Source of the DNA: Pedosphaera sp.
GTDB taxonomy: Bacteria; Verrucomicrobiota; Verrucomicrobiia; Limisphaerales; AAA164-E04
Direction: 5' to 3'
Length of the DNA stretch: 64,000 nucleotides
NCBI GenBank assembly: GCA_002690655.1
Contig: NZFL01000011.1
Location: forward strand, 169,448-233,447
Below, one piece after another: positions 4,589 to 36,760 of the stretch. The notes beneath the pieces are model-generated. The model saw only the letters and a list, made by a program, of their open reading frames with translations. It did no database searches and was not told where the DNA came from. The translations under genes and the position numbers were made by a program. Each line of letters opens with the position of its first letter. The first letter of the stretch is position 1.

Positions 4589-6091
4589 ATGAAAAAACAA
4601 ATTGCAGTATTATGCAACAGCATGCGCTTTGCATTAATTGGTACGATGACTATCGCAATCCTCGCTTCTGTTGCAACGGGGTGGATGAAGGGAGATGGTC
4701 GTGCAGGTGCTCATCCTGAGCCGACATTAAAAATCGACAATCAACCGCTGAAACGCGAAGGAAGCATGACCGTGAGTTTCGCTCCGGTGATTCAAAAAGT
4801 AGCGCCTAGCGTCGTCAAGGTATTCACAAGCACTGAAGCGAAGCCGAACGCATCACGTCGTGGCCCTGGTCTGGAACAGTTCTTTGGAGAAAAGTTCCGG
4901 GGCTTTGAATTCCCTGACATGCAGGGTTCCAAACCGAAAAGCGGATTGGGTTCCGGTGTCATTGTGTCTCCCGAAGGTTATATCCTTACCAATAATCACG
5001 TCATTGAGGGTGCCAACACGGTCAAGGTCGTCTTGAGTCCCGGCAATGAAGAATATGCTGCAGCAGTAGTTGGAGTAGACCCGAAGTCGGACGTTGCGGT
5101 TTTGAAAATAGATGCCCTCGATTTACAACCCATTGAACTGGGCAACAGCGATCAGATATTAGTGGGTGATCTGGTGCTTGCCATTGGGAACCCATTTGGA
5201 GTTGGGCAGACTGTTACCATGGGAATGGTCAGCGCCAAGGGGAGGTCGAACATGGGCCTGGACTACGAAGACTTCATCCAAACCGACGCGGCCATCAACC
5301 CAGGTAATTCCGGGGGGGCTCTTGTGGATGCTGAAGGTCGTTTGATCGGTGTGAATACTGCCATTTTGAGTCAATCGGGAGGCAATCTTGGCATTGGTTT
5401 TGCCATCCCTGTCAATCTTGCCCGCAGTGTCATGGAAAGCCTGATCAATCATGGCCATGTTGTGAGGGGCTATCTGGGGGTCAATATTCAGGACGTTCAA
5501 CCTGCAATGGCATCACACTTCGGTATGGAAGGCAGCACGGGAGCACTGATTGCAGATGTGGTACCAGGCAGTCCTGCCGATGCGGCCGGTCTACAGGCTG
5601 GCGATGTCGTGGTTGAGTTTGGTGGGAAGAAAATCAAGGACAGCCGACACCTGAAACTGGTGGTGGGGCAAAGCGCACCCAATCAGGGCTACGGTTTAGA
5701 GATCAATCGGGGCGGTGAACTGACAGCGATCGAAGTTTCGCTGGATGAACTCAGTGACAAAGGTTCGCAGTGGGCAAGTCAGTCGGGTCGCAACGCTGAA
5801 TCTTACTGGCCCGGCGACATGCAACTTGAGGAATTGACACCTGAGCTTCGAAGGCAGTTTCAGATTCCTTCGCGCATCAAGGGCATTCTTGTAAGCGGTG
5901 TCAAACAGGGTGGGGCAGCCTGGCAAGCCGGTGTGCGCCCTGGAGCGGTAATCCGCGAGATCAATCAATTACCTGTCGCCTCTCTGGCTGATCTGGATGG
6001 CATGCAGCTCGGTGATGGAGAATCGCTTGTGCGAATTTGGTATAAGGGTGCCAGTAACTATCGCGTGATTCGTTCGGAACCCCTGGGATAA
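4589..6091 (+). CDS. DegQ/HtrA-type periplasmic serine protease with PDZ domains
   Basis: Triad motifs TNNHVIEGA, DPKSDVAVLKI, NPGNSGGALVD; two C-terminal PDZ-like regions. Confidence 0.92.
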   Translation: MKKQIAVLCNSMRFALIGTMTIAILASVATGWMKGDGRAGAHPEPTLKIDNQPLKREGSMTVSFAPVIQKVAPSVVKVFTSTEAKPNASRRGPGLEQFFGEKFRGFEFPDMQGSKPKSGLGSGVIVSPEGYILTNNHVIEGANTVKVVLSPGNEEYAAAVVGVDPKSDVAVLKIDALDLQPIELGNSDQILVGDLVLAIGNPFGVGQTVTMGMVSAKGRSNMGLDYEDFIQTDAAINPGNSGGALVDAEGRLIGVNTAILSQSGGNLGIGFAIPVNLARSVMESLINHGHVVRGYLGVNIQDVQPAMASHFGMEGSTGALIADVVPGSPADAAGLQAGDVVVEFGGKKIKDSRHLKLVVGQSAPNQGYGLEINRGGELTAIEVSLDELSDKGSQWASQSGRNAESYWPGDMQLEELTPELRRQFQIPSRIKGILVSGVKQGGAAWQAGVRPGAVIREINQLPVASLADLDGMQLGDGESLVRIWYKGASNYRVIRSEPLG

Positions 6092-33299: not shown

Positions 33300-34043
33300 T
33301 CTTTTCATGGCTATGCGTTTGCCTGCTGTCAGTTCAGAGTTCATCTGATCCGCTTAATGTCATTTTGATCAACTCCACAATGATTTCTTTCCGTACTCTT
33401 ACACGGGCAGCCTCAATGACGGGTCGTTACCCCTGACTTACGGAGACTTATCTTACGATTTCAGAGCGGAATATGATGCACACTGATGAGCGGACGATTG
33501 CTGATGTGTTTTCAGAAAACGGCCATACCGCAGGGATAATTGGTAAATGACACCTCGGGGATTGTGTCAAGCATCGGCCGCAGGACCGTGGATTTCAAGG
33601 TGTTGTCTGGCACCGTTGCGGCGGTTTGGGGCAGGCTTCGGATGATTGGGGTAATGATTTTTTTTATGATACCTGCGAAAGGTAAGGATCCCATGAAAAG
33701 CTTGAAGGTCATTCCACGGATGTTTGGTTTGGTGGATCTAGAAAATTCATTGAACGAAACAAGGAACATCCGTTCTTTTTCTATCTGCCCCACCAAAGCT
33801 CCTCATGGCCACTATCGATTGTCCTTACGACAATGGCCCAAGGAAGCCCGTAAAAAATTAGAAGCCGTTCGTGTGAAAATTCAAATCGCCGGTCAGGCGC
33901 ATGAAGCGATGGTCAGCAATGGATCGGAGAGGATCGTTTTTGATCTTCAATTACCGAAAGGAAAAACAATATGCATCGCATGGTTATACGACGAACAGGG
34001 AAAAGCCGGTGGAGCCTGTTTCATGGGAGTGGAGTTACTCTAG
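33300..34043 (+). pseudogene. Decayed arylsulfatase
   Basis: Fragments in several frames: [99 protein letters not shown]; then sulfatase-like C-terminus WPKEARKKLEAVRVKIQIAGQAHEAMVSNGSERIVFDLQLPKGK; sulfatase core missing. Confidence 0.85.
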
Positions 34044-35737
34044 ATGAGCGATTTAATTTCTTCCACCGTGGACGCTTGTTTTATTCCGATTCCTGTTAAT
34101 CGTTTGCATAAACGGGCATTATTGAGCCTTATGCCGGATTTTGATCGTGATGATTCGTAAATGTCTTCAAAACTGATCTCATAAATTAATTCTGGTTTGA
34201 CCTGACAATTGTTACCTTGCTTTTGAAGGGGGTTTTCCAAAACAAATTCGCCAAGCGATTCGAAATCTTTTTTTGAATGCTGGTTGTCAATAACTGCAAC
34301 TGAAACCAAAGAATCATTGAGCCATGCTCCAAAGGTAAATCGAATGAAGTGAGTTTGATTTCCAGGCAGGCGTTCAGCACTTAATAATACTAGTCGCGCC
34401 CTGCATGATGCGGGTTTGAGTAGTCTCCATCTGTTTTCATCTGAATGAGTGTAACCCTTTGGATCCACCGGCATGCACAGAAGGCCAGTGGCATGTTTGT
34501 CACGGCAAATATTTAACCTGCCTTCAAGACTTGCCCAATTATTGCATTTGAAAAACCTGGAAAGGCTCATGGGCGGGGGTGAAATCGACTTTTCCGGCTC
34601 AGTCTTCAGAACGGTGGACATGTCGAACATTTCCTGCTGAAAGAAATCTGGGTTAACACCCTCTATCTCTGACTTGTTACCGTGGATGCTCCATTGATGG
34701 GACCATTCATCCATTACCTCCTTCATCTCAACCCTGCGCTGAGCAAAAGGGCAATTACTTAAATTGATGCCATGACGTTCAATGATGTCGAATACAATAA
34801 ACTGCACGGGAGTCGATTGAATTGTTTTCTGAGTAGCGGTTTTGACTTTTAATCGCTTTTGGACGTTTTCACGCGGGGGCGGAAGATCATCATCCCAAGC
34901 AACGATGAGCCCTTCCAATACCGTTCCGGATGGCAAAAGTGAAATGCCACGAATTAGCTCAGGAAAGCAGAGGTTCAAAGGGATCAGTTCCTCTGACCAA
35001 ATAGTTGAAACTTCCCGTCGCCTGATGCCCTGTGCGCGTATCCCATCAAAAGCGAAAGCAGCTTCCAGCCCAGGAGTGAAATCCGATTTGCCAGGCGGCT
35101 TCTCTGAAACGACGAACGGCTCAAAGTGACATGGCGTCATGGCCGTATCTATTTCAGGATCGGGTTCAATTAAGCTTTGAAACCATGTCGCACTGGGTTG
35201 CCAATCTTCAATGAGGCGTCTGGATATGACACTCCTGGGAATTCCTGAAATCTTAGAAAGTGCTTCATGGATAAGCGATTTTTGCGCGCCTAATTGGAAT
35301 CCGCCAAGAACCATTTTATTGAAAAGGACACGTTGTGTAGTGCTGAGCATTTCCCAAGCGCAGCGAATTGTTTCTTTTTTAGAAAGCCGGGTAAATCCGG
35401 AGAGTGGCTGTAGAAACTGGATTACCAGTGTGGAAAGACTTATTTCGCATCTGCCACCCTTACTTTCAAAGAGTAAGGCCAACGTTTCCGGAGTGTCTTT
35501 AACTCGCTCATTACAAGCTTTGATGACCCAATCGGGAAAGCAAGTTTGTGATTCAATGATCTCTTTCAACAATTTGAGGCCTGTCTTGGTTTTTAGCCTT
35601 CTGTTTTCAAAAAAGAACAAGGCCCAAGCAGCATCCTCGGGGGGGATTGAACTTAAATAGGATTTCAACTCTTGAACCTTGAAAGCGTCATTCGCGGCGG
35701 TATCAAGGTTTTCAATCAATTGTTGTAAACGTTGCAT
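34040..35737 (-). CDS. ATP-dependent DNA ligase family protein (Lhr-Lig-Exo-MPE type), predicted catalytically inactive
   Basis: Ligase architecture around FAFDGIRAQ, GTVLEGLIVAW, FIVFDII, but the KxDG lysine is Ala and DGEI is EGLI. Confidence 0.8.
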   Translation of the reverse strand: MQRLQQLIENLDTAANDAFKVQELKSYLSSIPPEDAAWALFFFENRRLKTKTGLKLLKEIIESQTCFPDWVIKACNERVKDTPETLALLFESKGGRCEISLSTLVIQFLQPLSGFTRLSKKETIRCAWEMLSTTQRVLFNKMVLGGFQLGAQKSLIHEALSKISGIPRSVISRRLIEDWQPSATWFQSLIEPDPEIDTAMTPCHFEPFVVSEKPPGKSDFTPGLEAAFAFDGIRAQGIRRREVSTIWSEELIPLNLCFPELIRGISLLPSGTVLEGLIVAWDDDLPPPRENVQKRLKVKTATQKTIQSTPVQFIVFDIIERHGINLSNCPFAQRRVEMKEVMDEWSHQWSIHGNKSEIEGVNPDFFQQEMFDMSTVLKTEPEKSISPPPMSLSRFFKCNNWASLEGRLNICRDKHATGLLCMPVDPKGYTHSDENRWRLLKPASCRARLVLLSAERLPGNQTHFIRFTFGAWLNDSLVSVAVIDNQHSKKDFESLGEFVLENPLQKQGNNCQVKPELIYEISFEDIYESSRSKSGIRLNNARLCKRLTGIGIKQASTVEEIKSLI

Positions 35738-35755
35738 GCGTGATCTTCCTCTAAG

Positions 35756-36760
35756 TTAATGGATTTGAGACGCATGCAAGGAGGCGGTAGATATGTTTTC
35801 AGGCAGTTGAGATACAGATAAACCTTTTTCAGTTAGCCATCGGGATAGAACAGAGCCATCCCCATGGGTCAGGAAGGTTTGTTCCGCTTCTGTTGCTTGA
35901 ATAGCCTGACAAAGACCTTCCCAGTCAGCATGATCTGAAACAATCAATCCATTGGGTAAGTTTTTTTTTCTTTTTTGACTGCGAATCTGGTTCCACCCGG
36001 AAACATCCAAGGATTGCCAGGAGCATGAATCTCCCAGACTTTTTTCCATCCTGCTTGATGGGGGACTGATGATCAGGGCCTGGTCCCGGTAGCGGATGAT
36101 GTTCTCGGGAGTAGCTTCCATTACTTTAGGAAACAGGACGCCTTCGGATATGTAAAATGGTAAAAAACTCAGGATGGCTGAATGAACCAAAACAGTCTGC
36201 TCGGAATCTTTCAGTGCATTTAATATACGTTGGGCTTTTCCAAGGGAATAAGCATTGATGACGCTGCTTAACCCTGCCTCACGGTTTGTTTTCCACCAGT
36301 TTTCCAGGCGATTCCATTCGTGATTGGGATCTGGCCATCGATAAATGGGATACCCAAAAGTGCATTCTGAAATGAATGTATGGCAACTCAAGGGTTCAAA
36401 TGGAGCGCAGGTCGGATCTGGATATGTTTTGTAGTCTCCGCTCACCACCCAAACTTCCCCTTTGTACGCTATCCTTACTTGCGCAGATCCCAAAATATGT
36501 CCAGCTGGATGGAATGATATAATGACACCACAAATGGATGTGGAAATTCCATATTCCAGTGCCTGTATGGAAATACTTTTACCAAGCCTCAATCTGAGGA
36601 GCGGCTCAGATGATTTGCTGCAGAGATACTTTTCGGAACCTCGACGCGCGTGATCAGAATGAGCGTGGGTGATGACAGCTCGATTGACCTTTCGCTTTGG
36701 ATCAATGTAAAAATCACCCTGTTCACAATACAATCCAGATGGAGTGGGGCGGATCAACAT
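35756..36760 (-). CDS. Ligase-associated DNA exonuclease (SNM1-like metallo-beta-lactamase fold)
   Basis: VITHAHSDHARRG, HPAGHILGSAQVRI, VVSGDYKTYPDPTCAPFEPL, VSDHADW. Confidence 0.87.
   Translation of the reverse strand: MLIRPTPSGLYCEQGDFYIDPKRKVNRAVITHAHSDHARRGSEKYLCSKSSEPLLRLRLGKSISIQALEYGISTSICGVIISFHPAGHILGSAQVRIAYKGEVWVVSGDYKTYPDPTCAPFEPLSCHTFISECTFGYPIYRWPDPNHEWNRLENWWKTNREAGLSSVINAYSLGKAQRILNALKDSEQTVLVHSAILSFLPFYISEGVLFPKVMEATPENIIRYRDQALIISPPSSRMEKSLGDSCSWQSLDVSGWNQIRSQKRKKNLPNGLIVSDHADWEGLCQAIQATEAEQTFLTHGDGSVLSRWLTEKGLSVSQLPENISTASLHASQIH

Follow-up and report, generated by a model that had tools for sequence, protein, structure and literature searches.

A LigB-type DNA ligase homologue without catalytic motifs, maintained beside an MBL/beta-CASP exonuclease in Verrucomicrobia and proposed to act as its DNA- and clamp-tethering partner

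Our analysis identifies a homologue of LigB-type (TIGR04120-like) ATP-dependent DNA ligases whose catalytic motifs are all lost and which is under purifying selection, as established from its dN/dS ratios and the depth of the clade that carries it. The gene lies at positions 34040-35737 on the minus strand of the window (the whole stretch of 64,000 nucleotides analysed here, from genome G000, Verrucomicrobia, whose near relatives include SCGC AAA164-E04), next to a gene for an MBL/beta-CASP nuclease. It can be described as a natural pseudoenzyme, its catalytic residues being gone while purifying selection and clade-wide retention persist. We propose, with a probability of about 0.6, that this pseudo-ligase is kept as a DNA- and clamp-tethering partner of the co-encoded nuclease, an adaptor role that we infer from comparative sequence analysis. 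One option offered in the preliminary description of this DNA was a protein that does not ligate and is retained to bind DNA or regulate a nuclease; this option gains support from the constraint on the DNA-binding domain, the pairing with the exonuclease and a clamp-like motif.

The ORF encodes 565 amino acids from an ATG start and contains no internal stop, which bears out the intact reading frame, free of stops and frameshifts, that had been reported. In an HMM library search it matched the PRK09247 model (249 bits, 9e-74) and TIGR04120 (196.7 bits, 7.8e-58, under the curated equivalog cut-off of 400 bits), neither score reaching half of its curated cut-off, and it matched Pfam DNA_ligase_A_M over the cut-off (40 bits, 3.8e-10). 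Homology to the LigB-type ligase spans the DNA-binding, NTase and OB domains, and the ligase tree places the pseudo-ligase together with active LigB. The N-terminal DNA-binding domain (residues 1-190, 35168..35737, minus strand) is the best-conserved part and matched DNA_ligase_A_N at 18.6 bits, under the cut-off of 24.6. The AlphaFold model, made from an alignment of six sequences, was poor (mean pLDDT 54.5, pTM 0.34); Foldseek ranked archaeal and human ligases at the top with E-values of ~1e-20 but TM-scores of ~0.3, a ranking that may be taken as weak fold support for ligase homology. Homology-based annotation would name such genes ligases, which would be misleading.

The motifs were compared by alignment with canonical ligases from the same order and from other classes of the phylum. 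At the motif I position (residues 227-234, 35036..35059, minus strand) AFAFDGIR replaces EWKWDGIR; Ala229 aligns without gaps onto the Lys of the same-order ligases and its codon is GCT (35051-35053, minus strand), exactly as first described. Further along the same minus-strand gene, WSEE replaces WSRG at motif Ia (34988..34999; SRG to SEE, with Arg changed to Glu249), EGL replaces DGE at motif III (34907..34915; Glu to Leu277), TGLLCM replaces EGLMLK at motif IV (34472..34489), WRLLK replaces WWKWK at motif V (34415..34429; KWK to LLK), and the RFPR..R.R.DK of motif VI is lost from the OB domain (34088..34129). The preliminary description was right about two of these losses and mislabelled them as motifs IV and V, since DGE is motif III and EGLMLK motif IV in standard ligase nomenclature; it did not include motifs Ia, V (KWK) and VI, which are gone as well. 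The protein thus lacks the KxDG nucleophile and motifs III, IV, V and VI of a LigB-type ligase, and members of its family keep 42-58 of the 108 near-invariant columns of active ligases. The joint loss of six motifs in seven separately assembled genomes is more than chance. Judging from the alignment, all residues for self-adenylation and nick sealing have been lost. A shifted nucleophile lysine was also considered and rejected: no NTase-domain Lys is conserved among the family homologues, which makes a displaced nucleophile unlikely.

The neighbouring gene (35756..36760, minus strand) encodes a ligase-associated MBL/beta-CASP exonuclease of 334 amino acids with HAHSDH intact (TIGR04122, 3.6e-120, 400.7 bits, cut-off 325). 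It retains 73 of 85 near-invariant residues, and its clade 73-78 of 85 with HxHxDH intact. Between the exonuclease stop codon and the pseudo-ligase we count 18 bp (35738-35755), one fewer than the 19 bp first given; the two genes, exonuclease upstream and pseudo-ligase downstream, form a probable two-gene operon. Promoter and terminator scans gave no more signals than in shuffles. In the window's family (f1), a ligase homologue is found in 8/8 exonuclease-bearing genomes and an intact one in 0/3 exonuclease-free genomes.

An exonuclease with intact catalytic residues next to a ligase is the arrangement of the Lhr-Lig-Exo-MPE cluster. The LigB family and its gene pairing are already known, going by the account in PMC10140301, which cites Ejaz and Shuman 2018; according to the same paper, what the LigB/exonuclease/Lhr/MPE pathway does is unknown. 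The pseudo-ligase resembles the LigB of this cluster (TIGR04120/PRK09247, "cisplatin damage response ligase") in its full-length homology, its three-domain layout and its place directly downstream of a TIGR04122 exonuclease; it differs in that the catalytic motifs are all lost and that Lhr and MPE were not detected in the window's genus. In G000-G004, whose genomes are 75-88% complete so that absence is no proof, MPE (TIGR04123) gave no match and Lhr (TIGR04121) only weak helicase matches. G005 and G007 carry both Lhr and MPE, yet their ligase is dead. Within the window's genus, ATP-ligase domain matches are confined to the pseudo-ligase. The NAD+-dependent LigA is over its cut-off in 20/20 genomes checked and is intact in the window genome.

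Between motifs IIIa and IV the pseudo-ligase has an insert (residues 351-404, 34526..34687, minus strand) that measures ~30-40 residues across homologues and is absent from most active ligases outside the order. It is mostly unconserved in the alignment save for NPDxxQQEMF, in which 7 positions are invariant in 7/7 family homologues while the rest of the insert varies; seven of the eight invariant insert positions fall within 9 residues, the only conserved block. The QQEMF within it (residues 367-371, 34625..34639, minus strand), invariant in 7/7 family homologues, is beta-clamp-binding-like. The published clamp consensus is Q-phi-x-[L/M]-[F/L], or QL[S/D]LF, internal loops being possible, and the clamp motif of E. 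coli Pol III alpha is QADMF (PMC11139829). QQEMF departs from this consensus with a Gln instead of an aliphatic residue at position 2, so that clamp binding could be weak or absent, and ~2.6% of shuffled proteins match the strict pattern Q[^P][SDE][LM]F by chance. DnaE of the window genome carries QTSLF near residue 980. At the same place as QQEMF, other dead ligases of the order have QMDLF, QGELF or QPELF and several active sister ligases have QADLF or QGELF; given these active ligases, the clamp-like motif seems to predate the loss of catalysis. Binding of QQEMF to the beta clamp is our hypothesis.

In the proposed mechanism, the conserved N-terminal domain would grip DNA and/or the nuclease, the QQEMF loop would dock on the beta sliding clamp, and this docking would deliver the nuclease to sites of replication or repair, with the NAD+-dependent LigA left to do the sealing. 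The pseudo-ligase would then have three binding partners, namely the exonuclease, the clamp and DNA. Precedents for a non-catalytic or nuclease-linked role of a ligase are found in eukaryotes. In 3W1B, human ligase IV is in contact with a peptide of Artemis, itself an MBL/beta-CASP nuclease (PMC4037875), and so offers another ligase paired with this type of nuclease; ligase IV is active, however, a contact in the bacterial pair would be hypothetical, and the resemblance is one of functional analogy only. Yeast ligase IV made catalytically dead (Dnl4 K466A) can still function in end joining (PMC3694833), a repair role for a non-catalytic ligase, although it is an engineered point mutant and not a natural pseudoenzyme. 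The lineage studied here dropped ligation and kept the nuclease, the DNA-binding domain and the clamp-like motif, a pattern suggesting that ligation can be dispensed with and that the nuclease depends on the ligase's non-catalytic function.

The closest competitor to clamp tethering is a structural or regulatory subunit that serves the exonuclease alone, stabilising or restraining the nuclease directly, with QQEMF and the clamp irrelevant. The strict gene pairing and the joint loss with the exonuclease would fit such a subunit, as would the ligase IV-Artemis contact and the fused exonuclease-ligase proteins of 900-1000 aa that are common in the class. It leaves unexplained why the insert's single invariant block should contain QQEMF and why QGELF, QADLF and QMDLF occupy the same place in sister ligases, and we consider it unlikely, while still taking it seriously.

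Family homologues occur in four congeners and in two genomes of the sister genus, at 92, 91, 37, 37, 33 and 31% identity, and KxDG is absent in 7/7 family homologues readable over the core (AFAFDG, EWNLKG, EWALRG, VALKQG, LRLPEG among them); no close relative has a normal KxDG. The dN/dS of the pseudo-ligase is 0.215 against G002 and 0.239 against G003, near that of the exonuclease (0.242 against G002), other neighbouring genes giving 0.02-0.21. By domain, against G002, it is 0.108 for the DNA-binding, 0.28 for the NTase and 0.30 for the OB domain. The relatives compared are one single-cell genome and separate MAGs. With the motif missing down to 31% identity, dN/dS at 0.22-0.24 and relatives assembled independently, we reject an assembly error and also the very recent inactivation that had been raised as an option in the preliminary description.

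The reading frame is open in 6/7 homologues, and the seventh is open apart from one base: in G003 (L089 near position 5130) the frame is lost near codon 45 through a single additional A in a short homopolymer, possibly a MAG error. In a third genus of the family (G006, one of the three exonuclease-free genomes), the exonuclease is gone and a broken remnant of the ligase OB domain is left (L135:4315-4681, G006:C67), with shifted frames, stops and frameshifts; its motif VI letters are still canonical, RFPRIAQRRRDK. We read this remnant as genuine decay; it suggests an active ligase in the ancestor of the family.

A gene that decays slowly while hitch-hiking in the exonuclease operon might show just such a remnant and such a 1-bp insertion, and might diverge faster than its neighbour, as the ligase does within the clade (mean identity 0.355 vs 0.547 for the exonuclease). 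Frames that stay open, or one base from open, across divergence to 31% are difficult to reconcile with this, and so is a dN/dS of 0.22, equal to that of the exonuclease. Moreover, the pseudo-ligase lies downstream, so exonuclease translation does not need it, and the constraint on its DNA-binding domain matches that in active enzymes. At matched exonuclease divergence (mean identity 0.547 for dead and 0.538 for active pairs), the identity of this domain is 0.500 in the dead clade vs 0.479 in active ligases, while the NTase domain falls to 0.357 vs 0.527 and the OB domain to 0.270 vs 0.651. Slow decay is in our view quite improbable. With the DNA-binding domain conserved and the NTase and OB domains relaxed, full constraint is kept only on the non-catalytic domain, and the selected trait would be DNA binding or protein contacts of this domain, not chemistry.

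The same comparison weighs on the idea of a residual enzyme that performs step 3, sealing 5'-adenylated nicks, or that uses another nucleophile or cofactor. The NTase and OB homology to solved ligases agrees with it, as does the retention, in most members, of the KxDG Gly, the Asp of motif IIIa and an Arg in motif I. Against it stand the loss of motifs Ia, III, IV, V and VI, the lack of a conserved NTase-domain Lys in the clade, and a motif IV-V region that is conserved least of all (0.175 identity in the dead clade vs 0.600 in active ligases); we consider residual catalysis very improbable. The DNA-binding domain could also owe its conservation to some other contact. A protein neofunctionalised to bind a different partner or substrate (RNA or a further repair protein, for instance), linked to the exonuclease by co-transcription only, would suit a domain that is conserved in the clade and diverged from that of active ligases (0.33 identity), but there is no sign of another partner and the joint loss with the exonuclease points to the exonuclease, which leaves this reading hardly probable.

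The tethering partner proposed for the window may have counterparts elsewhere. Homologues were searched in 320 genomes of the order, 384 of the class and 388 of the phylum, sets that overlap. Stand-alone homologues in the order comprise ~12 active and ~12 dead ligases, and dead ligases beside intact exonucleases also occur in three other families of the order. Outside the window's family, the dead ligases read EWLLDG in G042, EWDWIG in G105 and EWLWDP in G200; that of G203 retains the Lys (EWKWPG), its other motifs being gone, and G201 has a dead second copy (EWVPYG) in addition to an active pair. Each of these five adjoins an exonuclease with intact HxHxDH. The two exonuclease-ligase pairs of G201 lie at L075:2415-5107 and L085:3835-6572; the ligase looks active in one pair and is dead in the other. 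Within the window's family, the G010 homologue, truncated by the end of its contig, shows EWKWEG and no Glu at motif III. Outside the order, 20 stand-alone homologues were read, and a single one is dead: G639, from another class of the phylum, has EWIWDG, DGV, TGLMLK and KWT, and its exonuclease is elsewhere in the genome. The G639 ligase (L113:3432-5054) retains 91/108 near-invariant residues, and its loss is independent of the others and apparently younger.

In the ligase tree, 12/13 dead ligases are grouped (95/95), including two very long branches (3.5 and 3.7) that meet, and G639 has the active G734 as its sister (100/100). In the exonuclease tree, the dead pairs of the order are scattered (4 changes; AU p 0.03 against one clade). 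Together, the position of G639 and the scattered exonuclease tree rule out a single origin of all dead ligases, which we therefore reject. On these trees, ligase inactivation happened at least twice, in the family's lineage and in G639, and probably more often. A broader proposal, which we put forward tentatively and hold to be somewhat doubtful, is that Verrucomicrobia repeatedly turned the ligase of the pair into a catalytically dead subunit that, tethered to the clamp, targets an Artemis-like MBL/beta-CASP nuclease, giving a natural class of DNA pseudo-ligases with at least those two origins and probably several more. A natural DNA pseudo-ligase was not found in the open-access literature searched, most subscription journals being outside its coverage. 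Viral contigs yielded no relatives either.

Fused exonuclease-LigB proteins have been reported in Opitutus terrae and in Antarctic metagenomes (PMC10140301). They join the same nuclease and ligase families physically. The fused forms read in our analysis keep KYDGIRCQ and the other motifs, whereas the window has two separate genes and a dead ligase. ORFs of 930-985 aa are the commonest form in the class; L036, L040 and L044 are single ORFs of this size in which an MBL/beta-CASP nuclease is fused to an active-looking LigB. In G287, a 942-aa ORF (L116:4906-7731) joins a stand-alone-type exonuclease to an active stand-alone-type ligase and is apparently a second, separate fusion.
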